Part shown: piece by piece, positions 32,795 through 52,086 of the stretch | How positions within the stretch are numbered: the stretch's first letter is position 1 | Layout of the letters: each line of letters begins with the position of its first letter | Assembly (NCBI RefSeq): GCF_010586825.1 | Contig: NZ_JAAAGB010000001.1 | Location: 1,550,001-1,614,000 of the forward strand | Length of the DNA stretch: 64,000 nucleotides | Reading direction: 5' to 3' | Origin: Draconibacterium mangrovi | GTDB taxonomy: Bacteria; Bacteroidota; Bacteroidia; Bacteroidales; Prolixibacteraceae | Translations under genes and position numbers: made by a program | Notes under the pieces: model-generated | What the model was told of the DNA's origin: nothing | Database searches by the model: none | Seen by the model: only the letters and a program-made list of their open reading frames with translations

Positions 32795-33376
32795 ATGGAT
32801 GAATACGAATTGATTAGCGGCATAAAAAATGGCAATGAACACGCTTATCGTCATCTGTATACAAAATTTTATATCCCATTGTGCTATCATGCACAAAAAA
32901 TTGTTGCCGAAAAAGACCAGGCTGAGGAGGTAGTCCAGATTACATTTCTAAAATTATGGGAAAACCGTGAAAAATTTACAGTTATTGGTTCCCTTCACTC
33001 CTATTTATACAAAGCTGTTATTAATAACAGCATCAACCATATAAAAAGTAAATCGGCAAGATTAAGAAAAAACAATGTACAGCTCGACGACCTGTACGAC
33101 TATCTGGCAATAAGTCAAGACAATGGCTATTCAATATATATAGCAACAGAGCTAAAAAACAAGATTGAAGATGCAATTGATTCGCTACCCGAAAAATGTC
33201 GGGAAATATTTAAAATGAGTCGTTACGAAGGGAAATCGAACGAAGAAATTGCCAACACCTTGGAAGTTTCAAAAAACACCGTTCAGAAACAAATATCGAT
33301 TGCACTACAAAAACTAAAGGAATCGATAAAAGACTCAATACTAGTACTTTTAGCTATTCCCATAAAAAAAATGTAA
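32795..33376 (+). CDS. ECF RNA polymerase sigma factor (island)
   Basis: 193-residue Bacteroidota-type ECF sigma factor. Region 2 is GIKNGNEHAYRHLYTKFYIPLCYHAQKIVAEKDQAEEVVQITFLKLWENR; region 4 is SLPEKCREIFKMSRYEGKSNEEIANTLEVSKNTVQKQISIALQKL. It is followed 68 bp later by a FecR anti-sigma gene, then SusC and SusD. By analogy with FecI/FecR/FecA-type surface signalling it should activate the SusC/D genes when the STN domain of SusC senses transported substrate. Confidence 0.95.
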   Translation: MDEYELISGIKNGNEHAYRHLYTKFYIPLCYHAQKIVAEKDQAEEVVQITFLKLWENREKFTVIGSLHSYLYKAVINNSINHIKSKSARLRKNNVQLDDLYDYLAISQDNGYSIYIATELKNKIEDAIDSLPEKCREIFKMSRYEGKSNEEIANTLEVSKNTVQKQISIALQKLKESIKDSILVLLAIPIKKM

Positions 33377-33444
33377 ATTTTTTCGACTTTTCTTTTACTG
33401 CAGCTTACATTTTTTTTGTCTTAATAGTGTAAGCCAGTAAAAAA

Positions 33445-34539
33445 ATGACAAAATTAGACGAACTCATAATTGGATTTTTAAACAATCAACTTGATAGTTC
33501 TCAGAAAGAGGAGTTAAAAAAGTTGCTTGACGAAAGCTCTTCCAACAGAAAGCATTTTAAAGAGTTGGAAGGAATATACAATGCCTCTGAAATGGTTGGC
33601 AACCACAAAAAATTCAAACCGGATTTTTCCAATAGCCACCTTCGCACTCAAATTTTGGTTGACGAAAAAACCAGGAAAATAAGATCACGCTATCTATACT
33701 TTAACATAGCCTCTGTTGCTGCACTTATTTTGGTAGCTCTTATTTTCGCTATTGTTTCGCCAAAAACAAGTTTGTTTAATTCGAACAGCGAAGAAGTGGC
33801 ATATCAGGAAATTAGTACCCCTAAAGGATCTCGTTCACAACTCGTTCTTATCGATGGAACAAAGGTATGGCTGAATGCCGATAGTAAACTTATTTATCCA
33901 AGTAAGTTTAGCGATAGCGAACGTGAAGTAAAACTCATTGGCGAAGCTTATTTTGATGTAAAAACAAATAAGGAAAAACCATTTTATGTTCGTGCAGGCG
34001 AAATTAATGTGAAAGCTACCGGAACCACTTTTAACGTTAAAAATTATCCGGATGAAAATCTAATAGAAACCACCTTACTGGAAGGAACTGTGATTATTGA
34101 AAAGGCAGCCTTTGAAAACAGCGAGGCAATTGAATTGATAACATTAAAACCAAACGAAAAAATAACCTTAACCAAGGGAGAAAATAGCAGTATAAAAGAT
34201 TTGATCAGCCTTGCCGATCCAATGGATGAAAACCTTAACGTGGTAGCATTAAAGTCAATTAAAACTGCCGTTTTAACTAAAGATGCCAATGTTGAAAAAT
34301 CGGTTTCGTGGAAAGACAACAAAGTGATTTTCGAGAAAGAATCATTTGAGATGATTGTTAATCAGCTCGAAAGACGCTTTGGAGTAAACTTCATTTTCAA
34401 AAATGAAAGTACGAAGAAAATTCTGTTTACCGGAACTTTCGACGAAGTGAGTATAGAAGGAGCACTGGAAGCAATGAGTTTTGCAACTCCTTTTGCATAT
34501 GAAATAGAAAATGATTCGATTATAATTTCAAAAAACTAA
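33445..34539 (+). CDS. FecR-family anti-sigma factor (island)
   Basis: 364-residue membrane signal transducer. The short cytoplasmic N-terminal domain is followed by one membrane helix (YFNIASVAALILVALIFAIVS). The periplasmic FecR domain includes STPKGSRSQLVLIDGTKVWLNADSKLIYPSKF, VKLIGEAYFDVKTNKEKPFYVRAG and VKATGTTFNVKNYPDENLIETTLLEG. The C-terminal DUF4974 domain (VIFEKESFEMIVNQLERRFGVNFIF) probably docks with the SusC STN domain. It lies between its cognate sigma factor and SusC. Confidence 0.94.
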   Translation: MTKLDELIIGFLNNQLDSSQKEELKKLLDESSSNRKHFKELEGIYNASEMVGNHKKFKPDFSNSHLRTQILVDEKTRKIRSRYLYFNIASVAALILVALIFAIVSPKTSLFNSNSEEVAYQEISTPKGSRSQLVLIDGTKVWLNADSKLIYPSKFSDSEREVKLIGEAYFDVKTNKEKPFYVRAGEINVKATGTTFNVKNYPDENLIETTLLEGTVIIEKAAFENSEAIELITLKPNEKITLTKGENSSIKDLISLADPMDENLNVVALKSIKTAVLTKDANVEKSVSWKDNKVIFEKESFEMIVNQLERRFGVNFIFKNESTKKILFTGTFDEVSIEGALEAMSFATPFAYEIENDSIIISKN

Positions 34540-34575
34540 AAATAACTTAACAATAATGCCTATGTAACAAACAAA

Positions 34576-34610
34576 AAGGCCAAAAAATGCTACCAACATT
34601 CTCTGGCCTT
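34576..34610 (+). other. Leader hairpin upstream of susC
   Basis: AAGGCCA (34576-34582) pairs with TGGCCTT (34604-34610), with a further AATG/CATT pairing inside. No T tract follows, so it is not a standard terminator. It could be a 5' leader structure or processing site. Confidence 0.35.
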
Positions 34611-34677
34611 GAAAAATCTAACAAAATGTACACGCTTAAAATGTAACATTAGTGTTAAACAAAATCAAAACAAATTT

Positions 34678-37600
34678 ATGAACAAAATTGAGAAACTTAC
34701 ATCTTTTTCGAAAGAAAAGGGTATTAATCAAACCTTACTTAAAATGAAACTATTAGGTTTTATCATCCTTATTTCTGTTTTACATGTTTCAGCAGAAAGT
34801 TACTCTCAGCAGACGAAATTAGACTTGAACTACAAGAATTACTCAATTAAACAGGTTTTGAGTGAGATTGAGAATCAGAGTCATTATAAATTTCTATATC
34901 CAAGCGACTTAATCGATGTGGATAAACGAATTGATGTAAAAATAAAGAACGAAGACATTATCCAGATCATGGAAGAAGTCTTTAAAGATGAATCAGGGAT
35001 GATCTTTAAAATAGTAGAAGAGAATCTTGTGGTAATTTCATCGGAAGAGGCTCAGCAAAAAACTGTTACAGGGAAAGTTGCTGACACGGACGGTAACCCG
35101 TTACCTGGAGTTACAATTTTAATTAAGGGAACTACAAATGGTACCATTACCGATACCGATGGAAACTTTATTTTGCCCAATGTTGGTCCGGAAGAAACAC
35201 TGGTTTTTTCATTTGTGGGATTAGAAACACAGGAAGTCCTTGTTGGTGGGCAGTCAAATTTGAGCATTACGATGCAAGAAGGTACTGTTGGACTGGATGA
35301 AGTTGTTGCAATCGGATACGGAACAATGAAAAAATCGGATTTAACCGGTGCTGTATCATCTGTTAAAAATGAAGATCTGGAAGCTGTTCCGGTATACAAC
35401 ATGGAGCAAGCTTTAAAAGCCAATGCATCAGGTGTTCGCGTTAGTCAAAACTCTGGTCAGCCCGGATCCAGGATTGAAGTTCGAATCCGTGGAGGAAACT
35501 CAATGATTGGTGATAACGGACCATTATATGTTATTGATGGTTTCCCTATAACCGGGGGCATTAATTTTATCAACCCTTCCGATATTGAATCTATCGACAT
35601 TTTAAAAGATGCATCTGCAACGGCAATCTACGGAGCAAGAGGTGCCAATGGTGTTGTATTAATTACATCGAAAAGAGGAAAACAAGGTCAAAAAAGTAAA
35701 ATTGAGGTGAATAGTTTTATTGGTTTTCAAACCGATACAAAACGTTACGACCTGTTAAACGCTCAGGAATATGCCATCGTTTCCAATGAATGGCTGAGAA
35801 ACGGCAATCTTGAACCATTCTTCTCTGATGAGGAGATCGCCACCCTTGGAGAAGGTACAGACTGGCAGGATGCAATTTTAAGAACAGCTCCTATCCAAAA
35901 CCATACGGTTACCTTCTCAGGAAGCTCAGAAAAAACACGTTATTCATTATCCGGAAACTACTACGATCAGGATGGTATTATCATCAATTCAGGAGTTAAA
36001 AGAGGATCAGTTCGCTTGAATCTGGATCATGAATTAAACAGCTGGCTAACCATGGCCGTTAATCTTAATCTTTCAAGAAGATCAAATACCAGTATTCCAG
36101 TTGATAACGGCTATCGTGGAACATCTACTTTATCTGCGGCAGCTTCTGCCCCTCCAACTTTGCCGGTATACGACGACGAAGGCCTGCCAACTCAAATTGA
36201 AAGATTCTACAATTTTGGTTCAGCCGATATGCGTAACCCAATGATTTTTGCCAGCCGTCAAACTACAACATTAGCAAATACCATTGTTGGTAACGGAAGT
36301 TTTGATGTAAAACTGACAAAAGATTTGACCTTCAGAACGCTCCTCGGATTGGAATATTCTTACGCATGGCGCGATTATTACAATCCAATTATTTATGACA
36401 ACGACAGAGGAAGTGCGTCTCAAAGAACATCGTACAACAACTCATTTCTGAACGAGAACGTGTTGACTTACAAAAAAGAAATTGCAGACCTTCATGATAT
36501 AACGGTAACAGGTGGATACACTTACCAAACATACATGAGCAGGGCTTTAAACGCCAGCGTTAGCGGTTTTGCGAATAATACTACTGAAAATTACAATCTT
36601 GGCGCTGCAGAAATCGTTGATCCGCCATCTTCGTACTATTCAGAATGGGTGCTGGCATCGTGGTTAGCACGTTTTAATTACTCTTTCAATAATAAATATT
36701 TAATCACAGCTAGTGTTCGTGCCGATGGATCTTCCCGGTTCGGAGCTAATAACAAATGGGCAACATTTCCATCAGCAGCTTTAGCATGGCGTGTTTCTGA
36801 AGAGTCATTCATGCAGGATGTTACATTCATGAGCGATTTAAAATTCAGAGCTAGTTATGGTATTACAGGAAATACAGCTTTAAGTCCTTATCAGTCGTTA
36901 GACCGTTTAGGAACTGTTAAAACCATATTTGCGAACCAGGCCGACGAAGTGGGTTTTGTTCCAACAGGTATTTCAAATGCAGATCTGAAGTGGGAAACAA
37001 CGTCACAAATGGATATCGGTTTTGATGTAAGTCTGTTAAACAACAAGTTGCGATTAACAGCCGACTATTACAAGAAGAACACAACCGATCTGTTAGCTTC
37101 AGTTCCGCTACCTCCTTCAGTTGGTTTCGGTTCTATCCTTCAAAACATTGGTGAGATTCAGAATCAGGGTTTTGAATTCACTGCAAATGCAGAAATTATT
37201 AGAACTGCTGATCTCGTTTGGAACGTTTCTGCTAATTTCTCAACTAATAAAAATAAAGTGGTAGAAATTGCAGGTGGCAGTGATATTTTTGCTTCCGGAC
37301 AGGGTGCTGCATGGTCAAGTACCAACATTGCCCGCGAAGGAGAACCTATTGGAAGTTTCTACGGATTGGTTGAAGACCATATTGGCGACGATGGATATAT
37401 TGTGTACAAAGATTTAAGTGGCCCGGATGGAACTCCCGACGGGGTAGTAAATGCACTCGACCGTGTTATTTTAGGCAGTCCGCTTCCTGATTTCTTCTAC
37501 GGTGTGAATTCATCTCTTTCTTACAAAAATTTTGACTTGAATATCATTCTGGACGGAGTTTACGGAAATGAGATTTTTAATGCAACTTTAGGAACCCATC

Positions 37601-38007
37601 TTAACTCTTTCCAACGCGGAAACAACCAGTTTAAAGACATTATGGGCAATTACTGGACGGCAGAAAACCCTGATCCAAATGCCAAATATCCTAAAATCAG
37701 TGCAGGCACTCAAATGGATGTTTCTGACCGCTTTATCGAAGATGGAAGCTACTTAAGAGTCAAATCGATACGCTTAGGATACAAAATCCCAACCGAGAAA
37801 TTGGGTATTCCATGGTTCGATTTTGCACAGATTTACCTTTCCGGAACTAACCTGTTTACTTTTACAGATTATTCAGGACTTGATCCTGAAGTAAATACCA
37901 AAGGTGGAGATAGTCAAAATATTGCCAGCCGATTGAATATGGGCCACGACCAAAGCGGATATCCTAATGCGAAAACATATGCAATTGGTTTAAAACTTAA
38001 TTTCTAA
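34678..38007 (+). CDS. SusC/RagA-type TonB-dependent outer membrane transporter with STN domain
   Basis: The frame extends back to a TTG at 34609, but the ATG at 34678 ([15 protein letters not shown]) gives a normal signal region, so about 1109 residues are expected. Domains: long signal peptide ending near SAESYSQ; STN domain ([32 protein letters not shown]); carboxypeptidase-regulatory-like domain ([35 protein letters not shown]); plug with [17 protein letters not shown] and the SusC signature around [42 protein letters not shown]; then the 22-strand barrel to the terminal aromatic residue. The STN domain marks it as a signalling transducer for the adjacent FecR/sigma pair. Substrate unknown. 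Confidence 0.96.
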   Translation: [1109 protein letters not shown]

Positions 38008-38020
38008 AAATTCCGAAATT

Positions 38021-39475
38021 ATGAAAAGAATAACATTATATATTTTAATCGCAATCCTGTTTTCATCTTGTGAAAACATGTTAGACGAAGTTCCAAAGGA
38101 TTTTGTTTCACGTGCTAATTTCTACCAAAACGAAATAGATGCACAGGGAGCTTTAAATGGAGCATATGATGCCACCGGACCTGATTTTTATGGCATAACC
38201 CACTACTTAATGATTGAATTACATGGTGATTATCTGAATGGTAGAGGTTCTCAGGCTCCGATTTCAATTATGGATCAGGTTTTAAATCAACAGAATATCG
38301 GCAGATGTGAAACCAACTGGCTAACGCTGTATCGTGCCGTTAACCGTGCTAATGCAGTACTGGATAATGTTGTGGATATGGTTGATATTACCGACGAAGC
38401 TAAATCGCGAATTTTGGCAGAAGCTCACTTTTTAAGAGCAATGGCATATTTCGAATTGGTTAGAGGCTGGGGACCAGTACCTATTAAAACAAAAGAAAGT
38501 ACTGACCTTAGTGAACTGGAATCTCCAAGAATGCCGGAAAGTGAAGTATATAAACTAATTGTTGATGACCTGCTGGTTGCAGAGAGAGATCTTTCGGAAG
38601 ATGTAGGAGCTGAAACCGGTCGTGCAGGGAAATGGGCTGCAAAGATGCTATTATCTCATGTATACCTTACATTAGGCCAATGGGCTGAGGCAGCAGAAAA
38701 AGCTGACGATGTAATTAAAAGTGGTATGTACGAAATGGTAAGGGTTACTGAGCCTAACGATTTCTACAAGATTTTTGCAGCTGAAACCAGCTCTGAGGAT
38801 ATCATGTCTATTCACCACTCAGAAACAAGTACATCAACCATCCCAACTTATTTGCACCGTGGAAGCGCTTATCCGTATAACAACAGCAGTACCGGTTACT
38901 TCGCCTGGTTACCGGATATGAATTCATTTATTGGAGACAGTTGGGATACCAATGATTTACGTAAGCAATTCAACTTTTATTACGAATATCAGGATGCAGA
39001 CGGAAACTGGGTTTCACTGCCTTCAACTGTTCCTGTACTGATGAGAAAATTCATTAACAACGCAGATGGTCTAAGCATTTACAGTGTACCGATTTACCGT
39101 TACACCGAAGCTTTCTTGTTCTATGCCGAAGCTTCTTGTCAGGCTGAAGGAGGACCTTCTGCACTTGCTCTTGAGCGTTTAAATATGGTAAAAAGAAGAG
39201 CGTACGGTTACGATCCTACTGTTGCTTCTCCGGTTGATTATCCTTCTGGCATGAGCAAAGACGAATTCGTTGATACTGTTCTTCAGGAGCGTGCCTACGA
39301 GTTTATGGTAGAACGCAGACGCTGGTACGATTTAAAACGTACAGGAAAAGTAAAAGAAGCCTTCGCTGCCGTAGGTAAAAATATTCTGGATGAAAGAATG
39401 CTATTCCCTATTCCGGAAGATGAAATCAATAATAATCCTGCTATTAATCAGGAAGATCAAAATCCTGGGTACTAG
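38021..39475 (+). CDS. SusD/RagB-type outer-membrane nutrient-binding lipoprotein
   Basis: 484-residue surface lipoprotein that caps the SusC barrel and binds the substrate. The lipobox LFSSC lies after a short signal; the N-terminal domain follows (LDEVPKDFVSRANFYQNEIDAQGALNGAYDA). Helical TPR-like segments are visible (RAVNRANAVLDNVVDM, ILAEAHFLRAMAYFELVRGWGPVPI), and the C-terminus has the usual ERAYEFMVERRRWYDLKRTGKVKEAF and LFPIPEDEINNNPAINQEDQNPGY. It begins 13 bp after SusC. A strong terminator follows, so the oxidoreductases downstream need read-through or their own promoter. Confidence 0.95.
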   Translation: MKRITLYILIAILFSSCENMLDEVPKDFVSRANFYQNEIDAQGALNGAYDATGPDFYGITHYLMIELHGDYLNGRGSQAPISIMDQVLNQQNIGRCETNWLTLYRAVNRANAVLDNVVDMVDITDEAKSRILAEAHFLRAMAYFELVRGWGPVPIKTKESTDLSELESPRMPESEVYKLIVDDLLVAERDLSEDVGAETGRAGKWAAKMLLSHVYLTLGQWAEAAEKADDVIKSGMYEMVRVTEPNDFYKIFAAETSSEDIMSIHHSETSTSTIPTYLHRGSAYPYNNSSTGYFAWLPDMNSFIGDSWDTNDLRKQFNFYYEYQDADGNWVSLPSTVPVLMRKFINNADGLSIYSVPIYRYTEAFLFYAEASCQAEGGPSALALERLNMVKRRAYGYDPTVASPVDYPSGMSKDEFVDTVLQERAYEFMVERRRWYDLKRTGKVKEAFAAVGKNILDERMLFPIPEDEINNNPAINQEDQNPGY

Positions 39476-39518
39476 ATTTATGTCTATTAAGTGATTTTGG
39501 ATTATATATACATACAGC

Positions 39519-39687: not shown

Positions 39688-42654
39688 ATGAACCAGAATA
39701 AAAATAGATTTTCGGAACAGCTTATAAAGCAAGTTATCAATATCCTTGTGTTGGTTTTGCTGTGCGCTAGCGTACAAGCAAGCAATAAAGTAAAAGAATC
39801 ATCAGATTTTGTGCGTCAATCGGAAAGAGAAATTCCGCTTGAAAAATCAGTTGATGTATTGATCGTTGGGGGCAGCGTTCCGGCAGTTGCCGCAGCTGTT
39901 GAAGCCTCAAAAAATGGGGCCAGTGTATTTTTAGTAGCGCCAAAACTTTATTTGGGAGAAGATTTATGTGCAACCTTACGCTTACAGGTTCAACCGGAAC
40001 GTGAACTTAAAACCGAACTGGAACGAGAGATTTTTGGAGATAGCCTTATCACCACCCCGTTAAAAGTAAAAGCGACGCTAAATAAAGCTTTGTTGGATGC
40101 AAATGTGGAATTTGTATTCGGCTCTTTTATCTCTGATCTTTTATGGACAACAGATGAGAAACTCGCCGGCGCTGTTATCTGTAACCGCGCAGGACGTCAA
40201 GCTATTGCAGCAAAGACAATCATCGATGCCACCGATAATGGATGGATATCGCAAATGGCCGGGGCACAAATGGAGCCATGGAACGGCGAATCGATTAACT
40301 TTGAACGTACAATCCTTCTCCCCGGAGCAAATGATAATTCACTAAAATACGAGGTGAAAAAGTTAGCGATTCCAATGCAGGATCTTTCTTTCTCGTCGTT
40401 TGCAGAAGCAGAACAACTGGCACGCCAGCAAACCTACGACAAAGAACAACTGCGAGCTGCGGAATCTCTTTTCTTCGTCCCTCCCTACTCCATAATTTGT
40501 AAGAAGAATCAAGATCAGTGGAATTCCTTTCCTAATTTGGATTCAGACTATTTTCAGTCAAAAAACGTCGAAAACCTGTTTGTGCTTTCAGGAATGGCAG
40601 GAGTTCCCCGAACAGTTGCTGCTTCTCTTCTAAAGCCTGCAGCTTTATGTGAAGCGGGAATAATGGTAGGGTACAAATCAGCGGAATTAGCTGCAACAAC
40701 AGAACCGACTTCAGACATACATTTTAAAATTAATTCTGTTACAAATTCTAAGGGAGACATTGGAGAGATACTTACAGGTTTCCGGCCTGTACATGATACA
40801 CCAAACAGTATTAAACAACCAGAAACAGGCTTGCCGGTATTGGCGAATTACGATGTGGTTGTTGTTGGAGGAGGAACCTCAGGAGCTCCCGCTGCTATTT
40901 CTGCGGGCCGCATGTGGATGAAAGTTCTGGTAGTTGAATACCAGGAAGGTCTTGGTGGTGTGGGCACCCTGGGTTTAATTGGAAAACCATGGCATGGTCG
41001 TAATGTAGGCTTTGCCAAAGAAGTACCGTTCCCAAAAACCAATATTGAACCGAAAATGGAATGGTACCGTTCCGAGATTAAAAAAGTTGGCGGTGACATT
41101 TGGTTAGGCGTTCTAGGATGTGGAGCATATGTTGAAGACGGCCATGTAAAAGGAATTGTTGTAGCAACGCCCGAAGGAAGAGGCGTTATTCGTGCCAATG
41201 TAGTAATTGATGGTACGGGCAATGCAGATGTGGCTATTGCTGCAGGTGCAGATTATATGTATGGCGATATTGAAAATGGGAAAATCGCATTACAAGGCAC
41301 CGGCTTACCATCAAGAAAACCAACAGGGAACTATGTAAATACTGACTACCTGCTGGTTGATGAAACAGATGTTGTGGATGTTTGGCGAACTTTAATTAGC
41401 GTTCAGCAAACTAAAAACGCTGATAATATTTACGATGTTGGCTCTTTGATTCAAAGCCGTGAGCGTAGACGGATTGTAGGCGAATACGAACTAAACTACC
41501 TCGATCAGGTAATGGAACGCACCTTTCCGGATGTGATCGTTTTTTCGGGAAGTGATTACGATTCGCACGGTTATCCCAGTTCGCCCTATTTTGCTCTTTT
41601 GCCACACGACAAGGTATCCTGGAAACAAAATCATCCTGCGCCGGGAGGAACTTGCTATACGCCCTTTCGTAGTTTGATCCCCAAAAAACTGGACGGAATT
41701 ATTGTTACAGGACTTGGAATTAGTATGCACCGCGATGCTTCCGCCATGGTTCGTATGCAACTCGACTTAGCTAACCAGGGATATGCCGCCGGAGCAGCCG
41801 CGTCAATGGCCATATCTTCAGGTAAAGAGTTAAGGGATATCGATATAAAAGAGCTTCAAAAAATATTGATTGCCAAAGGTAATCTTCCCGATTCTGTTCT
41901 CAATTTAGGCGACTCATTTCCGCTTTCAAATAAAACAGTTAGAGAAGCAGTTGCCGACTACGGAAAAGCAACCAATCCGACTGAAGCAGGCAAACCTTTG
42001 GCAATAATTCTAACGCATAAAGAAGAAGCATTACGCGAAGTAAAAAAAGTTTATAAAGAGTCGGAAGGAAAAGAAAAGTTACAGTATGCCAGACTTTTGG
42101 GAGTTTGCGGCGAAAAGGACGGTATCGAGACTTTATTAGCGGAAATTGAAAATTTTAAAGGCTGGGATGAAAAGATATTTCAGGGATCGATGGCAGATTA
42201 TGCTCACCTTCCCACGCCGACCGACGGAATTATCTGGGCACTTGGAAATACCCTGGACAAACGGGCTTTACCAGCATTGTTGAAACTTACCGAACAATTG
42301 GATTCCGACGTTACTCTCTCGCACCACCGTGCGCTTGCACTTGCATTGGAGAAGCTCGCAGATCCTTCGGCGGCTAAACCTCTGGCCGACTTACTGGCAA
42401 AGCAAGGAATGCAAGGCCATGCAATGCTGAATTTAGACGATGCCATGACCGATCTGGAGAACGATGGTAAAGGCAAAAACAGTAGGCTTCCGTTGCCGAA
42501 ACGCACAAAAGCTCTTCGCGAAATTATCCTGGCACGTGCACTATATAATTGTGGCGACTACAACGATGTTGGGAGAAAAATTCTTGAATCATACAGACAT
42601 GACATGCGTGGACTATTTGCTAGGCATGCTACCAATATACTCGACAGTAAATAA
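39688..42654 (+). CDS. Exported tandem FAD-dependent oxidoreductase, type A
   Basis: 988-residue protein with a Sec signal (VINILVLVLLCASVQA). It carries two dinucleotide-binding regions: VDVLIVGGSVPAVAAAVEASKNGASVFLVAPKLYLGEDLC near residue 52, whose glycine pattern is degenerate, and a canonical YDVVVVGGGTSGAPAAISAGRM near residue 389, followed by VLVVEYQEGLGGVGTLGLIG. The last 200 residues look like HEAT-type helical repeats (GIIWALGNTLDKRALPALLKLTEQ, HRALALALEKLADPSAAKPLADLLAK). Fusion of an apparently degenerate and an intact FAD_oxidored module with a helical tail is unusual. A homologue (type A') lies 3.6 kb downstream. Substrate unknown; a periplasmic oxidation or dehydrogenation step is inferred. 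Confidence 0.85.
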   Translation: MNQNKNRFSEQLIKQVINILVLVLLCASVQASNKVKESSDFVRQSEREIPLEKSVDVLIVGGSVPAVAAAVEASKNGASVFLVAPKLYLGEDLCATLRLQVQPERELKTELEREIFGDSLITTPLKVKATLNKALLDANVEFVFGSFISDLLWTTDEKLAGAVICNRAGRQAIAAKTIIDATDNGWISQMAGAQMEPWNGESINFERTILLPGANDNSLKYEVKKLAIPMQDLSFSSFAEAEQLARQQTYDKEQLRAAESLFFVPPYSIICKKNQDQWNSFPNLDSDYFQSKNVENLFVLSGMAGVPRTVAASLLKPAALCEAGIMVGYKSAELAATTEPTSDIHFKINSVTNSKGDIGEILTGFRPVHDTPNSIKQPETGLPVLANYDVVVVGGGTSGAPAAISAGRMWMKVLVVEYQEGLGGVGTLGLIGKPWHGRNVGFAKEVPFPKTNIEPKMEWYRSEIKKVGGDIWLGVLGCGAYVEDGHVKGIVVATPEGRGVIRANVVIDGTGNADVAIAAGADYMYGDIENGKIALQGTGLPSRKPTGNYVNTDYLLVDETDVVDVWRTLISVQQTKNADNIYDVGSLIQSRERRRIVGEYELNYLDQVMERTFPDVIVFSGSDYDSHGYPSSPYFALLPHDKVSWKQNHPAPGGTCYTPFRSLIPKKLDGIIVTGLGISMHRDASAMVRMQLDLANQGYAAGAAASMAISSGKELRDIDIKELQKILIAKGNLPDSVLNLGDSFPLSNKTVREAVADYGKATNPTEAGKPLAIILTHKEEALREVKKVYKESEGKEKLQYARLLGVCGEKDGIETLLAEIENFKGWDEKIFQGSMADYAHLPTPTDGIIWALGNTLDKRALPALLKLTEQLDSDVTLSHHRALALALEKLADPSAAKPLADLLAKQGMQGHAMLNLDDAMTDLENDGKGKNSRLPLPKRTKALREIILARALYNCGDYNDVGRKILESYRHDMRGLFARHATNILDSK

Positions 42655-42675: not shown

Positions 42676-44361
42676 ATGAAACAGCTATTGATTATTATTT
42701 TCTGCCTATTTTCTATAACTCACCTCCAAAGTCAACCTCAATATGACATTGTAATTTACGGCGGCACTTCTGCCGGAATATCAGCCGCAATCCAAAGTTC
42801 GAGAATGGGGAAATCAGTTTTATTGATCGAACCTACACGCCGCATTGGCGGATTAACAACCGGAGGACTTGGACAAACCGACATCGGAAATAAACAGGCA
42901 ATTGGCGGAATTTCCAGAGAGTTCTATCAAAACATAAAAGCTTACTACGAAAATCCCGATAACTGGAAGTGGCAAACCGCTGCAGAATACCGAGATGGTG
43001 GACAAACCCGTACAAAAGCAGGAGAAGATGCAATGTGGACATTTGAACCGTCTGCCGCGCTAAAAGTATACGACCAAATGATAGCCGCTGAAAACATTGA
43101 TTTGGTTTACGAAGAAAGATTGAACCGAAAAAATGGAGTTGAAAAAGATGGGACACAAATTGTGGCAATTGAGATGGAGAGCGGTAAAAAATACTCCGGA
43201 AAAATGTTTATCGACGCAACCTATGAAGGAGATTTATTGGCTACTGCCAACGTTAGTTATGTAATTGGCCGTGAATCGAATAAAGAATATGGCGAAACTT
43301 TAAACGGTGTGCAGGCAAACGATATTGGAATCACACTTCGGAAAACAATTTCACGTAACAGCGTTCATCATAACTTTATAGACAGAGTTGATCCGTATAT
43401 CGTAAAAGGTGACCCGGAGAGCGGTTTGCTACCTTTTATTACAGAAGGTGGTCCGGGAGTAGATGGCGACGGAGATAAAGGCATTCAGGCTTATTGTTTC
43501 AGAATGACACTTACCGATGCTCCTGAGAATCGTATTCCGTTTGCAAAACCTGAAAATTACAATGAACTGGACTATGAGCTTCTTTTTAGAAATTATGAAG
43601 TTGCACCGGGGGCAATGGAAGAAATGTACGAGTACGGCGATCCATTGGTGCCATGGATTAACTCGGCAATGCCAAACCGGAAAACAGATACCAACAACCA
43701 GAAAGGATTTTCTACTGATTTTATTGGTCAGAACTACGATTATCCCGAGGCTTCATATGCTGAACGTGAAAAAATTGTAGAGCGACACCGCAGCTACCAG
43801 CAGGGCCTGATGTGGACACTTGCCTATCATCCACGCATTCCTCAGAAAGTAAAAGATAAAGTTTCTAAATGGGGTACCTGCAAAGATGAATACGAACGGG
43901 AAGACGGCTGGCAGCAACAGCTTTATATACGAGAAGCCCGCCGAATGGTAAGCGGATATGTAATGTCTCAGAAGAATTGTGAAGGTTTTGAAGTGGTGGA
44001 AGATCCGATTGGACTTGCCGCTTACGGAATGGATTCGCACCAGGTGCAACGCTATGTTGATGCCAATGGATTTGTTCAAAACGAAGGAAATGTGGAAGCT
44101 TCTGTGCCTGCCCCTTACCCAATTAGCTATCGTTCTATTGTTCCGAAAAAGGAAGAATGTACAAACTTATTGGTGCCTGTTTGCCTTAGCGCTACACACA
44201 TCGCTTTCGGATCGATAAGAATGGAGCCCGTATTCATGGTTTTAGGGCAATCGGCGGCTACTGCTGCGGTTTTGGCGATAGGCAGCGAAGTAGGTGTACA
44301 AAACCTGAATTATTCGGAATTAAAGGAAAAACTATTAAGTGATAAGCAAGTATTGAAATAA
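42676..44361 (+). CDS. Exported FAD-dependent oxidoreductase, type B
   Basis: 561-residue FAD_oxidored (PF12831-like) protein with a Sec signal ([16 protein letters not shown]). The FAD-binding segment is [49 protein letters not shown]. Family segments [57 protein letters not shown] and [24 protein letters not shown] are present. Such proteins in Bacteroidota are often called xanthan lyase-like or FAD-dependent oxidoreductases, but their reactions are mostly unknown. It starts 21 bp after type A and is closely similar to the next gene, a probable tandem duplicate. Confidence 0.88.
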
Positions 44362-44428: not shown

Positions 44429-46117
44429 ATGAACATAAAGTTAAACATTAGAATCTTAAGATCATTTATCGCAATATTTACCTTCTGCCTTGTTTTTATA
44501 GGATGCCAACAGGCACAGAAAACGGAAAGCAGTAACACAGCAGATGTTATCATTTACGGAGGTACATCAGCAGCCGTTACCGCCGCGGTGGAAGTAGTTC
44601 AGTCGGGCAAATCCGTTATTGTTGTCTCACCCGATATTCACCTCGGAGGACTTTCTTCCGGAGGACTTGGTTTTACTGATACAGGTAATAAATCAACCAT
44701 TGGAGGGCTTTCTCGCGAGTTTTATCACCGCGTATGGCAACATTACAACGAAGATGCTGCCTGGGTTTGGGAGAAGCATTCGGAATACGGGAACAAAGGC
44801 CAGGAAACTGTTGCTATGGACGGTGAAAACCGAACCATGTGGATTTTTGAGCCTCATGTAGCCGAACAGGTTTTTGAAGATTTCGTTACTGAAAATAACA
44901 TCCGTGTTGACCGCGACGAATGGCTTGATCGGGAAAACGGTGTAGAAATGGAAAACGGAAAGATATCAGCCATTACTACCCTTTCAGGGAAAACCTACAA
45001 AGGCAAAATTTTCATAGATGCCACTTACGAAGGAGATTTAATGGCAGAGGCGGGAGTGAGTTACCATGTTGGGCGCGAAGCTTGCTCGGTTTATGGCGAG
45101 GAATGGAACGGCGTTCAGGCAGGAGTTTTCCATCATGGCCACCATTTTAGTAATAACATTGATCCTTATGTAATTCCGGGAGATCCTTCCAGCGGACTGT
45201 TACCTAAAATATCAGCAGAAAAACCTGGGACAAATTGCAGCGGCGATAATAAGGTACAAGCCTATTGCTTTCGCATGTGTATGAGCAATCATCCTAATAA
45301 CAGGGTGCCTTTCCCAAAGCCGGATAACTACGATCCGAAAGATTATGAATTGCTGGCACGTGTTTTTGATGCCGGTTGGCGTGATTGGTTCAATAAATTC
45401 GATATGATTCCGAACAAAAAAACAGATACTAATAACCATGGGCCTTTTAGCAGCGACAATCTCGGGATGAATTACGATTATCCGGAAGCTTCTTATGAAA
45501 GAAGAAAAGAAATCATTAAAGAACATGAAGATTATCAAAAAGGCTTGCTTTATTTCGTAGCAAATGATGAAGGTGTACCACAGGAAATTCGTGAAGAAAT
45601 GCAAAACTGGGGCTTGGCTGCTGATGAGTTTACTGATAACGGTAACTGGCCGCATCAACTTTATATACGCGAAGCCCGCAGAATGATTGGCGACTATGTT
45701 ACAACTGAAAATGATGTATTGGGAAAAAGAGAGGTTCCTAAACCTGTTGGAATGGGCTCTTACACCATGGACTCGCACAATATTCAACGTTATGTAACGG
45801 AAGAAGGCTACGTACAGAATGAAGGAGATATTGGAGTTCATCCTCATCATCCTTATCAAATTTCCTACGGGTCTATAATTCCTAAAAAGGAAGAATGCAA
45901 CAACTTGTTGGTTCCGGTAGCAGTTTCATCAAGCCATATTGCATTTGGGTCTATCCGTATGGAACCGGTATTTATGATTCTGGGGCAATCAGCCGCTACT
46001 GCCGCTTGTATCTCAATCGATGAGAAGATTGATGTTCAAAATGTACAATACGAGGAGCTGGAAAAACTTTTGCTTTCAAAAGGACAAGTATTAAGTTCAG
46101 CTCAAACAGAACAATAA
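44429..46117 (+). CDS. FAD-dependent oxidoreductase lipoprotein, type B'
   Basis: 562-residue paralogue of the preceding gene, with a lipobox (LVFIGC) instead of a plain Sec signal, so probably anchored to a membrane. The FAD-binding segment ADVIIYGGTSAAVTAAVEVVQSGKSVIVVSPDIHLGGLSSGGLGFTDTGNKSTIGG is intact. The same family blocks follow: [76 protein letters not shown] and [24 protein letters not shown]. Different localisation from type B suggests two compartments or two substrates. A weak hairpin follows the gene. Confidence 0.88.
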   Translation: MNIKLNIRILRSFIAIFTFCLVFIGCQQAQKTESSNTADVIIYGGTSAAVTAAVEVVQSGKSVIVVSPDIHLGGLSSGGLGFTDTGNKSTIGGLSREFYHRVWQHYNEDAAWVWEKHSEYGNKGQETVAMDGENRTMWIFEPHVAEQVFEDFVTENNIRVDRDEWLDRENGVEMENGKISAITTLSGKTYKGKIFIDATYEGDLMAEAGVSYHVGREACSVYGEEWNGVQAGVFHHGHHFSNNIDPYVIPGDPSSGLLPKISAEKPGTNCSGDNKVQAYCFRMCMSNHPNNRVPFPKPDNYDPKDYELLARVFDAGWRDWFNKFDMIPNKKTDTNNHGPFSSDNLGMNYDYPEASYERRKEIIKEHEDYQKGLLYFVANDEGVPQEIREEMQNWGLAADEFTDNGNWPHQLYIREARRMIGDYVTTENDVLGKREVPKPVGMGSYTMDSHNIQRYVTEEGYVQNEGDIGVHPHHPYQISYGSIIPKKEECNNLLVPVAVSSSHIAFGSIRMEPVFMILGQSAATAACISIDEKIDVQNVQYEELEKLLLSKGQVLSSAQTEQ

Positions 46118-46125
46118 AAACATTA

Positions 46126-46154: not shown

Positions 46155-46282
46155 CTTATAATAAACAACCTAAAAAACGTCATTAAGTTGATAAAAGACA
46201 CCTGTTATCCACTACCAACTTTCTTAAAAATTAAAACTAAAAACTGATATTTAAGCAAAAATCAATCAAACCAAAACCAACA

Positions 46283-49200
46283 ATGAAACGACGTAACTTT
46301 ATTAGAACAACTGCGGCTGGTTCGGCATTATTATTTACCCCCGGCGCATTTACTTTTGGCAATACCTTAATCGAGGATAAGAAATTTTGCTATCAATCGG
46401 CAAGAAAAATACCAGTAGCTTATAACGTTGATGTGTTGGTAATTGGCGGTTCAATGGCGGCAGTAGCTGCAGCTGTTGAAGCAAAAAAATCGGGTGCTAA
46501 CGTTTTTTTGGTAGCCATGGAAACCTATCTGGGTGAAGATGTTTGCGGAACTTTTCGCTTTTGGACAGACGACAACGGCGTTAATGATACCGAACTCGGA
46601 AAAAGTATTTTCGGGAATGGCCTCCCCACACCACTACATGTAAAGCGCACACTTGACAATGCGTTGATCGACAACGACATTAATTTCCTATATTCCAGCT
46701 ACGTAACCGACATTTTAAGTGATAAAAACAATCAACCGGCCGGAGTGGTAATTTCAAACCGCTCAGGAAGACAAGCAATTATCGCCAAAACAATTATCGA
46801 CACTACTCCACGGGCAATGGTTGCTCGCATGGCCGGAGCTCAGTTTGGAGTTTATCCTTCAGGCGAACAAACTTTTAAATTCACAGTAGTTGGAAATCAT
46901 TTAAAAGAAGCGCCGGGCCTAAAAGGAAAAATACAGGATAAAAAAGTACAGTTGAAATACGCTTCCACCGGAGATACACAGGGAACTGGTTTTTCAGATG
47001 CAGATATTCAATACGATGCTATCGAATACTCTATTCAAATTAATATGAAGGATGGAAGTTGGGCATCGTTTGCAGAAGCTGAGCAGGTTGCCCGCGACCT
47101 TACCTGGGATTCGGATCAGGTTGAATCGTCTGACATAATTTTCCAGAATCCTCCGGATAAACTGGTCGGTCAAAAACGATGGAATAATACTGACGTTGAT
47201 CCGGATAATATCAATCTGAAAGTCTTCAAACCCAGAAAACTGGAAAATATTTTTGTATTAAGCGGAAGTGCCAATTTAAGTGCCGCAGCTGCCGAAACGC
47301 TGCTAAAACCGGGGAAACTTATTCGAATTGGAGAGCGAATAGGTGTGGAGGCTGCAAGTGTTTCTGCTACCTTTGAAGAACCACAATCGGTTAAAATTAA
47401 AGGCGATAAAAACACTGGAGTTGTTTCGGGCGATGTAGGTGAAATTTTGGAAGGTTTGCGCCCTTCTCTCAATATTGGTGAGATTAACGCTGAAGAAACG
47501 ACTCTGCCTGTTTTGGGGACCTATGATGTAGTTGTGATGGGTGCCGGCACTGCCGGAGCTCCCGCCGGTGTTGGCGCAGCAAAAAAAGGAGCGAAAACGC
47601 TAGTGCTCGATTACATGCACGGGATGGGCGGAATGGGAACGGTTGGTATGATTGGAAGATACTACCACGGCTACCGAAAAGGATACACCAACACCGTTGA
47701 CGCGGGTGTGAAAAATATGGATGCTGACAATCCGCGCAAAAAGAAATCGATGGCAGAGTGGGTTTTCGACTGGAAAACAGAATATTTCAGACGGGAAATC
47801 CGAAATGCTGGTGGTGAAATTTGGTTCGGAGTGCTGGGTTCGGGAGCCTATGTTGAAAACGGAAGAGTTAAAGGTGTGGTTGTTGCAACCCCCGAAGGCC
47901 GGGGAATTGTACTGGCTCACACCGTAATTGATTCAACAGGAAGTGCCGATATTGCTATTGCAGCAGGTTCTGAATATAATTACACCGATGGATATTCAAT
48001 TGCCGTTCAGGGCTCCGGACTTCCATTCAAAAATCCGAATGACTTTTACAACAATACCGACTGGACATTTATCAACGATTCAGACATGCTGGATGTATGG
48101 CGTGCCTTTGTGGTTGCAAAAGATAAATTTAAAGACCAGTACGATATTGGAAAAATACCGCAAACCCGTGAACGCCGAAGAATGGTTGGCGATTTCACTG
48201 TTGGAGTACTGGATGTATACAACGGTCGCACATATCCTGATATTATTTCAGCTCACCTCAGCTCTTTCGATACGCACGGATTTACAGAAGATCCGTTCTT
48301 CTCGCTAAAACCACCGGCTCACAGCGGAGTAGATGTTTTAGCTTTTGTTCCATTCAGAGCGCTACTCCCGAAAGGACTGGAAGGTATTGCCGTTACCGGG
48401 CTTGGTGCCAGCGCTCATCGCGATGCTATGCCGGTTATCCGTATGCAGCCTTGTTTGCAAAACCAGGGATACGCAGTTGGAATGGCTGCAGCACAGGCAA
48501 AATCGAATCAACAAAATATTCGATACATCGATATCAAAACACTTCAAAAAGAGCTTGTAAAAATTGAAAGTCTCCCGGAACATGTACTTACCGACATAGA
48601 CAACTACCCACCACCTTATGAGAAGATACAACAGGCGGCAATCTCAGTTGTCGACAACCTGGAAGGGTTGGAAACGATTTTGTGGGATAAAGACCGGGGT
48701 ATAACCGCACTGATTGACCAGTATCATCTCACTAAAAACGAGGAAAACAAACTGGTTTATGCGCGTATTTTGGGTATGCTTAGCGATCCAACCGGATGGG
48801 AAGACCTGATTAAAGCAATTGATACTTACGATGAATGGGACGAAGGCTGGAACTATACAGGAATGGGGCAGTTCGGAAAGAGTATCAGTTACCTGGATAG
48901 TTTAATAATTGCTGCTGGCAGGACGCAAAAAACAGAAGCTATACCGGCCATTGTGCGGCTGGCAGAAAAACTGACGCCGGAGAGTCATTTCTCTCATTTC
49001 AGGGCAGTTGCCATTGCTCTTGAAACAATTGGCGATAAAAAAGGAGCCGAACCACTTTTCAAAATTCTTGAAATGCCGGGAGTAAGGGGGCATGTTATGC
49101 CGGATATAAAAACAGCAAAAAAACTTGCACCTGCTTTTAAAAACGATGTATCGACCCGAAATAACGCGTTACGTGAAGTAATCCTGGGGCGTGCATTATA

Positions 49201-49339
49201 CAAATGTGGCGATTATAACGGTGTCGGAAATCAAATTCTAAACGAGTATTCGAAAGATTTACGCGGACACTTCTATCGCCATGCAAGCGGAGTTTTACAG
49301 CTCTTTACTGCTCCGAAAGATGTGGAGGTTGAATTATAA
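46283..49339 (+). CDS. Tat-exported tandem FAD-dependent oxidoreductase, type A'
   Basis: 1018-residue homologue of type A with a twin-arginine-like signal (MKRRNFIRTTAAGSALLF), which would export it folded with bound flavin. The first dinucleotide-binding region is VDVLVIGGSMAAVAAAVEAKKSGANVFLVAMETYLGEDVCGTFRFW; the second is YDVVVMGAGTAGAPAGVGAAKKGAKTLVLDYMHGMGGMGTVGMIGRYYHGYRKG. The C-terminus has HEAT-like helices (AIPAIVRLAEKLTPESHFSHFRAVAIALETIGDKKGAEPLFKIL) and ends like type A (LREVILGRALYKCGDYNGVGNQIL). Type A uses Sec and this one appears to use Tat. It is followed by the FMN-binding-like gene. Confidence 0.86.
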   Translation: MKRRNFIRTTAAGSALLFTPGAFTFGNTLIEDKKFCYQSARKIPVAYNVDVLVIGGSMAAVAAAVEAKKSGANVFLVAMETYLGEDVCGTFRFWTDDNGVNDTELGKSIFGNGLPTPLHVKRTLDNALIDNDINFLYSSYVTDILSDKNNQPAGVVISNRSGRQAIIAKTIIDTTPRAMVARMAGAQFGVYPSGEQTFKFTVVGNHLKEAPGLKGKIQDKKVQLKYASTGDTQGTGFSDADIQYDAIEYSIQINMKDGSWASFAEAEQVARDLTWDSDQVESSDIIFQNPPDKLVGQKRWNNTDVDPDNINLKVFKPRKLENIFVLSGSANLSAAAAETLLKPGKLIRIGERIGVEAASVSATFEEPQSVKIKGDKNTGVVSGDVGEILEGLRPSLNIGEINAEETTLPVLGTYDVVVMGAGTAGAPAGVGAAKKGAKTLVLDYMHGMGGMGTVGMIGRYYHGYRKGYTNTVDAGVKNMDADNPRKKKSMAEWVFDWKTEYFRREIRNAGGEIWFGVLGSGAYVENGRVKGVVVATPEGRGIVLAHTVIDSTGSADIAIAAGSEYNYTDGYSIAVQGSGLPFKNPNDFYNNTDWTFINDSDMLDVWRAFVVAKDKFKDQYDIGKIPQTRERRRMVGDFTVGVLDVYNGRTYPDIISAHLSSFDTHGFTEDPFFSLKPPAHSGVDVLAFVPFRALLPKGLEGIAVTGLGASAHRDAMPVIRMQPCLQNQGYAVGMAAAQAKSNQQNIRYIDIKTLQKELVKIESLPEHVLTDIDNYPPPYEKIQQAAISVVDNLEGLETILWDKDRGITALIDQYHLTKNEENKLVYARILGMLSDPTGWEDLIKAIDTYDEWDEGWNYTGMGQFGKSISYLDSLIIAAGRTQKTEAIPAIVRLAEKLTPESHFSHFRAVAIALETIGDKKGAEPLFKILEMPGVRGHVMPDIKTAKKLAPAFKNDVSTRNNALREVILGRALYKCGDYNGVGNQILNEYSKDLRGHFYRHASGVLQLFTAPKDVEVEL

Positions 49340-49532
49340 ACGAATACTTGCTTCCGATATAGCAAGTTTAATATCAATTTTCAACAGAGGAAGATTGTGA
49401 TGCAGCAACATGGTTGGAAATGTGTTGATAAATACGATAAGGAAAATGCACAAAATTATAACGTAGGCAGGACACTGGGCTCCAAATAATAAACAGGTTT
49501 AAAAAAAGATAAATTTATCTAAGTGGCAGGAT

Positions 49533-50621
49533 ATGGTAAAGCAGTTTTGGATTTTGATTATGATCGTTTCCGGGGGATTATTCTGTCTTTCCTATTTCAA
49601 TTTAAATAGTAGAGAAAACTTTCTGTCCTGGGAGGGAGAGCGTATGTCTCACGCCTTTAACGATACAGTTGATGAACTTTCTGAGCAACAGATTATTGAG
49701 TTGCAAAACGAGGAAGGGATGCCTGTTTATTTTGGCAGATACTTTTTTAAAGATGTTTGTATATCGGGAAAATGCAAGATGATTCGTGTTTGGCTGTTTT
49801 GGGATGGTGCCGGGAATTATTTGGGGCATCAGGTGCCCGTTGATGAGCCGCTGACAAAATCGGATCATACTGTTTTTGAGCCTAAGGATTATCAGAAGTT
49901 GGATAAAATTCTGGCAGATCGTTCTTCTATTTTGAAAGATTTGAAACAGGAGGATTTAGTAATTATTCCGGACTCAATTGAGAATCCGTATGAGTTAGAT
50001 GGTTACACTGCGGCAACTCAACCCGCTTTATCAGAAGTTATAGTAAAAGATGCTGTTTATACTTGCCATACGCTTTGGCATACGGTTTACGGTCCTACTC
50101 AGCAGGAAGTATTACGTTTACTCGACGAGCGAACGAATGCCGATTTTTTGAGAAAGATGCTTTCATCAAAACAACCCGGCAAAATTATCTGGGTAATTGA
50201 AACAGTTGAGAAGCACCGAAAATATCACGAAGAGTTTTATCCCCATTTTATAGAGTATATAAAGTCGGAAGATGATATCCTGGCCGATAAGGCATTGGAT
50301 TATTTCCAAAATAGTATGCTGAATGACGAATTGATACAGAAGCGTCTTGTCAGTGAAATGCCTTACTTTTCAGCAAGTACCAATGTTGAACTGATCTGGA
50401 GACTTATTGAACACGGAACGGTCTCTGACGAAATATTCGGAGAACTCATACAGTTTGTAAAAGAGGGAAAACTGCAGGTGACAGCACTTAACATCGTTTA
50501 TCAGCTTTTTCAACCTGATTTTTTAAAAGACGAACAAATAAAAACAACAATGAATAACTTTTTGAATGGAGAAGATGCCTATGTGCGCCGATTAACTCAA
50601 AAGGTTATGGAAACAAAATAA
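49533..50621 (+). CDS. Membrane-anchored protein, FMN-binding-like region plus helical repeats
   Basis: 362-residue protein with one N-terminal membrane helix (FWILIMIVSGGLFCLSYF). Residues about 55-190 resemble periplasmic FMN-binding proteins of Bacteroidota: DVCISGKCKMIRVWLFWDGAGNYLG, then D156-G-Y-T-A-A-T162, compatible with the flavinylation motif D-x-x-(S/T)-G-A-(T/S) except for Ala in place of Gly, then AVYTCHTLWHTVYG. T162 would be the covalent FMN site added by ApbE; no apbE is in the window. The C-terminal half is a set of short helical repeats. Its position after four exported FAD enzymes suggests a redox partner. The family assignment is by recall and moderate only. Confidence 0.6.
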   Translation: MVKQFWILIMIVSGGLFCLSYFNLNSRENFLSWEGERMSHAFNDTVDELSEQQIIELQNEEGMPVYFGRYFFKDVCISGKCKMIRVWLFWDGAGNYLGHQVPVDEPLTKSDHTVFEPKDYQKLDKILADRSSILKDLKQEDLVIIPDSIENPYELDGYTAATQPALSEVIVKDAVYTCHTLWHTVYGPTQQEVLRLLDERTNADFLRKMLSSKQPGKIIWVIETVEKHRKYHEEFYPHFIEYIKSEDDILADKALDYFQNSMLNDELIQKRLVSEMPYFSASTNVELIWRLIEHGTVSDEIFGELIQFVKEGKLQVTALNIVYQLFQPDFLKDEQIKTTMNNFLNGEDAYVRRLTQKVMETK

Positions 50622-50631
50622 AAAATATAGG

Positions 50632-52086
50632 ATGATTACATTTATTATTTCCATAGCAGTACTTGTAGCAGGATATTTTATTTATGGTGGCTATGTCGAT
50701 CGCAAATTCAAAAGCGATCCTTCCCGACCAACTCCGGCAATCGAAAAAAATGATGGAGTGGATTACGTGCCTTTAAAAACAGGCAAAATTTTCCTGATTC
50801 AGTTTTTGAATATTGCCGGCTTGGGGCCAATCTTTGGAGCAATTGCAGGGGCAATGTGGGGGCCTGTTGCTTTTATTTGGATTGTGCTGGGGTCTGTATT
50901 TGCAGGTGGTGTGCACGACTATTTCTCAGGTATGCTTTCTGTGCGGCACGGAGGAGAGAGTATCCCCGAAATTGTTGGAAAATATTTGGGAATTGGAGTA
51001 AAGAACTTTATGCGGGTTTTTGCTCTGGTCTTGCTGATTTTGGTCGGTGTTGTTTTTGTAAAAGGGCCAGCAACAATTCTTGCCGGGCTGTCAAGTGTGA
51101 GCTCGTTTTATTGGATCTTCATCATATTTCTATACTACATTTTGGCTACAATGATTCCTATTGATAAGCTAATTGGTAAGATCTATCCGTTCTTTGGCGG
51201 TTCCTTACTTGTTATGGCGTTAGGAATCTTTGCAGTATTGCTTTTCGGGAAATATACGATCCCCGATCTAACGCCTGCAACCTTTGCCAATATGCATTCG
51301 AATTCCGATAAGTTTCCGGTGTTTCCAATGTTATTTATTACCATTGCTTGTGGAGCAATTTCAGGATTTCACTCTACGCAATCGCCTCTAATGGCTCGGT
51401 GTCTTTCGAATGAAGCCGATGGTAAAAAAATATTTTTCGGAGCTATGATCACAGAAGGTATAGTTGCGTTGATTTGGGCTGCTGCGGCCATGGCTTTCTT
51501 CGGAGGTGTGCGCGAGTTGGGTGAAACAATGGCACAGCCCGGGCATAATGCAGCTTGGGTGGTCAATCAAATTTGTGATACGATGCTGGGAAAAATCGGT
51601 GGTTTGCTAGCGATCATCGGAGTGGTTGCTGCACCCATAACATCGGGTGACACGGCATTTAGAAGCGCTCGTTTAACCATTGCCGATACATTCGCTTTTA
51701 AGCAAGGTAAACTGACACAACGTTTGGTTATTACAATTCCCATTTTTGTTGTGGCTATACTTCTCACTACAATTAATTTCGATATTATTTGGCGGTATTT
51801 CGGGTGGTCAAATCAAACGCTGGCAACAGTTGTATTATGGACTGCAGCAGTTTATATGCTAATTAGAGGCGAGAATTTCTGGATTGCGCTTATTCCTGCA
51901 ATTTTTATGACAGCAGTGGTAACAACATACATACTTGTAGCACCAGAAGGCTTGATGTTACCCTACGCTTTATCCGCATTTATTGGATGTATTGTAACGG
52001 TCATTCTGACAGGCTATTTTTTCTTTTTTAGATCGAGAAAAGTTGTAACCGGACGTGTAACAATGAGCTCTGTTCGAAGTAATTAA
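50632..52086 (+). CDS. CstA-family carbon starvation permease
   Basis: 484-residue inner-membrane protein of the carbon-starvation protein A family, known or suspected to import peptides or pyruvate. It has KFKSDPSRPTPAIEKNDGVDYVPLKTGKIFLIQFLNIAGLGPIFGAIAGAMWGPVAFIWIVLGSVFAGGVHDYFSGMLSVRHGGESIPEIVGKYLG and ITSGDTAFRSARLTIAD, which are CstA signatures. It is shorter than E. coli CstA (about 700 residues), like other short Bacteroidota versions. It starts 10 bp after the FMN-binding-like gene, so it is co-transcribed, and may take up the end product of the pathway encoded upstream. Confidence 0.92.
   Translation: MITFIISIAVLVAGYFIYGGYVDRKFKSDPSRPTPAIEKNDGVDYVPLKTGKIFLIQFLNIAGLGPIFGAIAGAMWGPVAFIWIVLGSVFAGGVHDYFSGMLSVRHGGESIPEIVGKYLGIGVKNFMRVFALVLLILVGVVFVKGPATILAGLSSVSSFYWIFIIFLYYILATMIPIDKLIGKIYPFFGGSLLVMALGIFAVLLFGKYTIPDLTPATFANMHSNSDKFPVFPMLFITIACGAISGFHSTQSPLMARCLSNEADGKKIFFGAMITEGIVALIWAAAAMAFFGGVRELGETMAQPGHNAAWVVNQICDTMLGKIGGLLAIIGVVAAPITSGDTAFRSARLTIADTFAFKQGKLTQRLVITIPIFVVAILLTTINFDIIWRYFGWSNQTLATVVLWTAAVYMLIRGENFWIALIPAIFMTAVVTTYILVAPEGLMLPYALSAFIGCIVTVILTGYFFFFRSRKVVTGRVTMSSVRSN

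Follow-up and report, generated by a model that had tools for sequence, protein, structure and literature searches.

A recurring type of SusCD locus with exported flavoenzymes in Draconibacterium mangrovi and relatives, and a candidate FMN-binding-fold electron carrier

The locus occupies positions 32795..52086 of the window, the whole 64,000-nt stretch of Draconibacterium mangrovi DNA that was analysed. It holds ten genes, each one intact open frame on the + strand, and the list of open reading frames agrees with the coordinates first given in an earlier note on this DNA. The genes and one motif are as follows.

32795..33376, + strand: ECF sigma factor, 193 aa (PF08281, sigma-70 r4_2, 4.9e-15, 55.4 bits; PF04542, r2, 3.7e-11, 43.1 bits)
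33445..34539, + strand: FecR-type anti-sigma protein, 364 aa (PF04773, FecR, 1.5e-18; PF16344, FecR_C, 7.6e-19)
34609..38007, + strand: SusC TonB-dependent transporter, start codon uncertain (TIGR04056, 922.9 bits; weak STN)
38021..39475, + strand: SusD lipoprotein, 484 aa (PF07980, 6.9e-25; PF14322, 7.7e-21)
39688..42654, + strand: A1, predicted exported FAD oxidoreductase with two FAD-binding motifs, 988 aa (PF12831, 4e-61, in four stretches)
42676..44361, + strand: B1, predicted exported FAD oxidoreductase, 561 aa (PF12831, 1.6e-113, residues 24-553)
44429..46117, + strand: B2, FAD oxidoreductase with a lipoprotein-like N-terminus, 562 aa (PF12831, 4.5e-112)
46283..49339, + strand: A2, FAD oxidoreductase with two FAD-binding motifs and a Tat-like start, 1018 aa (PF12831, 5.1e-57)
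49533..50621, + strand: putative FMN-binding-fold protein with an N-terminal hydrophobic segment and HEAT-like C-terminal repeats, 362 aa
49998..50018, + strand: flavinylation-type motif of the 362-aa protein, D156-G-Y-T-A-A-T162
50632..52086, + strand: CstA-family permease, 484 aa (PF02554, 1.8e-56)

The open frames and their Pfam and NCBIfam matches bear out the earlier account of the ECF sigma factor, FecR, SusC, SusD, four flavoenzymes and CstA. SusC had also been described as STN-bearing; its identity as SusC is clear, and the STN match is weak, with 24.0 bits against a Pfam cut-off of 28.4. The SusD shares 90% identity with that of a related locus, L088. Adjoining SusC and SusD homologues, which mark a PUL, are present (Pfam, NCBIfam), and the glycan-cleaving enzyme also required of a PUL is not found among the ten frames (Pfam). 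The same scan lists no hydrolase, lyase, sulfatase or peptidase domain in any of them, in line with the earlier statement that no such gene is intact here.

Just upstream of the locus lie a tRNA-Leu (30183-30267), a phage-integrase SAM-like frame and a transposase DDE frame (to 31992), and the GC fraction is 0.33-0.35 across 30001-34000. Arrival of the locus as an island is possible. Downstream of CstA, positions 52678-53412 hold a 244-aa frame whose DUF4143 match falls right on the Pfam cut-off. A hybrid two-component sensor, an MFS sugar transporter, a PfkB kinase and a second SusCD pair follow at 53673-63979, a region that resembles a PUL in its own right, possibly of fructan type.

The four flavoenzymes match PF12831 (FAD_oxidored) far above its curated cut-off of 27 bits, with 208 bits for A1, 380.6 for B1, 375.8 for B2 and 194.5 for A2. 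FAD-binding motifs lie at residues 57 and 390 of A1 and at 51 and 416 of A2, and a HEAT_2 match near the A2 C-terminus is weak (2.2e-4, below cut-off). A hydrophobic signal opens A1 and B1, B2 begins like a lipoprotein (..VFIGC), and A2 has a Tat-like twin-arginine start; export of all four, as the earlier note had it, is thus predicted from signals judged by eye and a hydropathy scan. In sequence searches of the PDB, B1 had a single, weak match, to a thioredoxin reductase, and A1 had none. With a profile of the B type, the best 60 of 311 matches cover the FAD-binding end alone, where flavocytochrome c fumarate reductases appear together with many unrelated flavoproteins. With matches weak, absent or confined to that end, no solved structure of telling role is reached by sequence from A1, B1 or the B profile.

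Named relatives of single locus proteins come from Draconibacterium, Maribellus, Mariniphaga, Sunxiuqinia and Prolixibacteraceae records. Querying genome contigs with a single protein returned two Sunxiuqinia loci only, and an alignment query would reach further. Within the host's family, 86 of 140 genomes have a B1 match at 1e-60. From 135 B matches, 20 core loci anchored on B genes were selected, namely high-scoring ones plus G066, which is of B2 type only; three high B matches stand outside the 20 (G129, which is L041; G038:C145; and G135:C13). Profile searches of the 20 find B1 in 19, B2 in 17, A2 in 13, A1 in two and CstA in 11, and 14 of the loci carry SusC or SusD on the same strand (in L098, too, Pfam detects a SusD). 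Several of these stretches stop at contig ends, and the loci are not all independent, since L093 and L094 are near copies in one genome and L091 and L092 are near-identical relatives. Because the set recurs, it is more than a chance assembly.

Hydrolases are recognised in a few of the core loci: a sulfatase in L087, GH78 in L097, GH92 in L098 and, by BLAST only, one in L105. None is found among the assigned genes of, for example, L088, L089, L091, L093, L101 and L104, and most of the 20 lack a recognised hydrolase, part of their frames having been scanned. The absence of a hydrolase described earlier holds for the window's locus, and some related loci do carry GH or sulfatase genes. Loci that join SusCD to exported flavoenzymes, often with CstA and in most cases with no recognised hydrolase, form a type that recurs. 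Titles and opening lines of abstracts, which made up most of the open-licence literature consulted, name no SusCD locus with PF12831 enzymes, an FMN protein and CstA.

Loci anchored on A2 alone come from another 11 genomes of the family and often have GH2-type genes beside A2. Across the wider order, 10 of 393 genomes, the host's own included, have an A2 match at 1e-150 (two candidates scored per genome), and four of the nine other loci (L136, L137, L140 and L143, from other families of the order) have an adjoining B-type gene at 47-52% identity; SusCD is found in L140 and L144. The B-type oxidoreductase at L140:11130-13130 carries an extra Golvesin C-terminal domain (PF25275).

The earlier note had proposed that its claim would fall if conservation of the oxidoreductases did not extend to this SusCD pair, a check that the claim largely withstands. 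Apart from the SusD of this locus, five SusD genes reach 64-90% identity; four of the five lie near A or B genes, and the fifth (L156) meets a contig end just past SusD. SusD genes at 34-44% identity are mostly unlinked (six of 24 near B, none of 24 near A), and other B loci have a SusD only about 23-26% identical to the window's. The enzymes and the importer are thus linked, and the importer is exchangeable.

The permease is a member of the CstA family, with a PF02554 match of 192.5 bits against a cut-off of 27. At 1e-80, the family genomes hold 68 CstA matches, the host's own two included, and within 10 kb of these lie B genes in 28 cases, A genes in 18, FMN-like genes (homologues of the 362-aa protein) in 14 and any of the three in 44, against about 0.8 CstA expected near such genes under random placement in a 5.2-Mb genome. 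Of the A matches, 20 of 39 are near CstA, as are 44 of 135 B matches and 14 of 59 FMN-like matches. In the host genome, each of the two CstA genes directly follows one of the two FMN-like genes. Import, exported flavin enzymes and CstA are therefore tied by gene linkage. Still, 24 of the 68 CstA genes lie away from A, B and FMN-like genes, which counts against the oxidative reading developed below; of 17 such neighbourhoods inspected, 15 show no PF12831 protein and two (L159, L160) have one. Three SusD loci were read alongside them.

The 362-aa protein has no Pfam match at E 0.001 nor at E 1. PF04205 (FMN_bind) is absent among 25 of the 41 families listed for 56 family members, so at most one of the 56 could match it. 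There are 240 homologues, and among the 120 matches listed the named ones are hypothetical or uncharacterised proteins. Residues C76, C81, W90, K109, H112, F115, L127, D156, A161, T162 and W182 are invariant in the 56 aligned members, and D-x-x-[ST]-[GAS]-A-[ST] is found in 54 of them. The flavinylation motif given in the accessible part of PMC12052999 is D-x-x-[S/T]-G-A-[S/T], and replacing G with A there lowered flavinylation of a model protein to about 50%. That strict G form is present in 16 of 56 members; the window's protein has A, which counts against the preferred explanation. Among 32 FMN_bind loci of the host's family, a frame with the motif is found in 12, and in 10 of these it reads D-[AG]-I-T-A-A-T.

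A full-length fold search was swamped by HEAT/ARM proteins, reflecting a HEAT-like C-terminal part, so the N-domain was modelled alone. Its model has a pLDDT of 85.4, with the loop 125-130 beside the motif below 50. The best Foldseek matches to the model are RnfG and NqrC, at values that are not significant (E 0.076 and up). Re-ranking of that list with VIA-align places RnfG at 8.1, 8.1, 7.9, 7.7 and 6.4, NqrC at 5.4-5.0 and CbFMN4 at 4.9; ranks 1-14 are all RnfG, NqrC or CbFMN4, and unrelated chains score 3.7 and below. Aligned with 11 FMN_bind proteins (mostly RnfG-like as read here), the N-domain profile falls in register on the motif (pairwise E 8.5e-5, probability 60%), and the full-length profile reaches pairwise E 7.4e-4 with probability 26%. 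An FMN-binding fold of RnfG/NqrC type is thus supported for the modelled domain, and the family is missed by Pfam. The earlier description of a membrane-anchored FMN-binding-like protein agrees with this fold and motif; as to anchoring, the hydrophobic segment at the N-terminus may either hold the protein in the membrane or be removed as a signal. The host genome has three ApbE genes and three PF04205 genes, none of them in the locus.

The context of FMN-like genes was followed in 40 loci (40 of 63 matches, the window's own gene left out). A PF12831-type gene is found in 24 (adjacent in 19), CstA in 12 (adjacent in 10) and SusC/SusD in 15; the 16 with no PF12831 gene in the stretch count against the oxidative reading. 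In the close relatives, the gene mostly stands after one for a PF12831 enzyme of some 617 aa, and GH2, GH3, Melibiase-like and sulfatase genes are among the neighbours. More distant members adjoin di-haem oxidoreductases or a peptidase, so the FMN-like protein serves more than one system. Short FMN-like proteins of about 290-300 aa stand next to di-haem oxidoreductases in L056-L059; the latter was identified as PF06537 in L056 and belongs to the same protein cluster in all four loci. An 821-aa protein without a Pfam match at 1e-5 (L061:13063-15528 and relatives) forms a cluster that recurs in 10 of the 40 loci.

The earlier note had grouped the FMN-like protein with the core enzymes, and this does not hold among relatives. 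Profile searches find its gene in none of the 20 core loci, which counts against the oxidative reading, and an FMN-like match anywhere in 12 of the 19 genomes bearing them; in the seven without any, electrons would need another route. One core locus with the FMN protein does exist, since L041, the second-best B1 locus, holds parts of B2, B1 and A1 together with an FMN-like gene. L053 and L054 combine an FMN-like gene and CstA with a gene of the B2 type (76%). In the CstA tree, the window's CstA falls in a 99/97 clade with L061, L063 and L064, all FMN-like loci, and another group (100/100) unites 13 CstA of B loci lacking an FMN-like gene with seven of FMN-like loci. From this placement, the window's locus is probably a mosaic of a B-type core and an FMN-like/CstA cassette, the latter looking, from sequence relationships, as if it came from another locus type.

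Taken together, the locus may serve oxidative nutrient acquisition, with the FMN protein carrying electrons and CstA taking up the product, a reading to which we give an even chance as a whole. Under sigma/FecR control, the outer-membrane SusCD pair would import a ligand, most likely a sugar derivative, and the exported A- and B-type enzymes would oxidise it outside the cytoplasm. The oxidised product would then pass the inner membrane via CstA. The 362-aa protein, RnfG/NqrC-like and probably bearing FMN on Thr162 through the action of a host ApbE enzyme, would take electrons from the FAD enzymes and deliver them to the membrane electron chain. Sugar chemistry is favoured by the neighbours of related loci: A, B or 617-aa-type genes lie near GH2, GH92, GH95, GH78, sulfatase, PF06439 or sugar-acid genes, with sugar-acid genes in L106 and a Gfo/Idh-like gene (BLAST only), a TIM protein and DUF6807 in L098. 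The earlier proposal of uptake coupled to extracytoplasmic oxidation gains from the recurring SusCD/flavoenzyme locus type, often with CstA; the oxidation, the direction of electron flow, the substrate class, ApbE action and entry through CstA are inferred.

Electrons could also run the other way. In the accessible part of PMC8238504, characterised flavinylated systems are described as moving electrons from a donor in the cytosol to an acceptor outside it, which counts against the oxidative reading, although by the same source the direction could be reversed. Here electrons would pass outward through the FMN protein to the FAD enzymes, and these would use them to reduce an organic compound taken up from outside, in the manner of exported fumarate- and urocanate-reductase systems. 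The fumarate reductases matched by the B profile agree with such a role, but the match is limited to a FAD-binding stretch common to many unrelated flavoproteins, and SusCD, CstA and nearby glycan genes would suit a carbon source better. No membrane electron-transfer partner is seen within the locus (Pfam), which weighs against inward flow and, for want of a donor, against outward flow too. A respiratory role is considered unlikely.

A special form of the oxidative reading, which we hold to be quite unlikely, has the FAD enzymes make keto-glycosides (e.g. at C3) for a 3-keto-glycoside cleavage route. Such a route, with the LacABC glycoside 3-dehydrogenase and DUF1080, is known from Caulobacter and putative in Pedobacter according to the accessible part of PMC9007349. 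Single loci are suggestive: L158 (same SusD subfamily, 63%) combines a PF06439 3-keto-disaccharide hydrolase with Gfo/Idh, a xylose-isomerase-like TIM protein and CstA; in L072, SusCD, PF06439 and Gfo/Idh accompany a 635-aa PF12831-type protein and an FMN-like protein; and L160 has PF06439, a PF12831 protein and CstA. However, PF06439, the mark of such loci, is absent from the window's locus (Pfam). PF06439-like genes occur in nine of 100 loci, four of which supplied the search profile, against about 5-6 expected as estimated from the host genome's 20 PF06439 matches, so they are not clearly enriched. PF06439 as a standing partner, attractive from single loci, was dropped.

It is improbable that the FAD enzymes replace hydrolases by cleaving the imported glycan in a redox-neutral cycle of oxidation, elimination and reduction. 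The paired FAD-binding motifs of A1 and A2 and the scarcity of recognised hydrolases in the core loci, as far as their frames were scanned, would fit, but there is no sequence or structural sign of lyase chemistry, and some related loci do have hydrolases. An ECF sigma factor, FecR and an STN domain are typical of the regulation of siderophore or haem uptake. Scavenging of iron or a cofactor, with flavoproteins reducing the metal, is nevertheless highly improbable: flavinylation and iron-transporter genes colocalise (accessible part of PMC8238504), but a SusD partner and CstA are present here, and the same regulators precede SusCD in many related loci, glycan ones included.

A wider picture, which is doubtful, is that of a family of uptake loci in which extracytoplasmic flavin redox replaces hydrolysis. 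They would be served by a new class of flavinylated HEAT-repeat carriers, invisible to Pfam, which would move together with CstA as one cassette and fit different sets of exported flavoenzymes, making sugar uptake and respiration one device. Polysaccharide loci are recognised through hydrolases and lyases, and a recurring SusCD locus bearing exported flavoenzymes only would escape surveys based on these. The FMN-fold protein offers a testable electron carrier for some such loci. To our knowledge, the substrates of the CstA family in Bacteroidota are unclear, and the linkage described here gives a functional handle on these transporters.

The locus resembles a PUL of the ECF sigma/FecR type in its regulators and its outer-membrane importer pair, and differs in that its enzymes are PF12831 flavoproteins, with no hydrolase or lyase domain, joined by an FMN-fold protein and CstA. 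With LacABC, as described in the accessible part of PMC9007349, it would by description share periplasmic glycoside oxidation as a first step, with C3 chemistry hypothetical here and PF06439 missing from the window's locus. The window's CstA belongs to the same PF02554 family as the pyruvate symporter PRK15015/CstA, and its 484 aa score 99.7 bits, where that model's cut-off is 1188. The 362-aa protein is like RnfG and NqrC FMN_bind proteins (PF04205) in its modelled N-domain fold and its D-x-x-T-x-A-T motif. Unlike them, it escapes the PF04205 profile, bears HEAT-like repeats at the C-terminal end along with the invariant pair C76/C81, and adjoins exported flavoenzymes rather than Rnf or Nqr genes.
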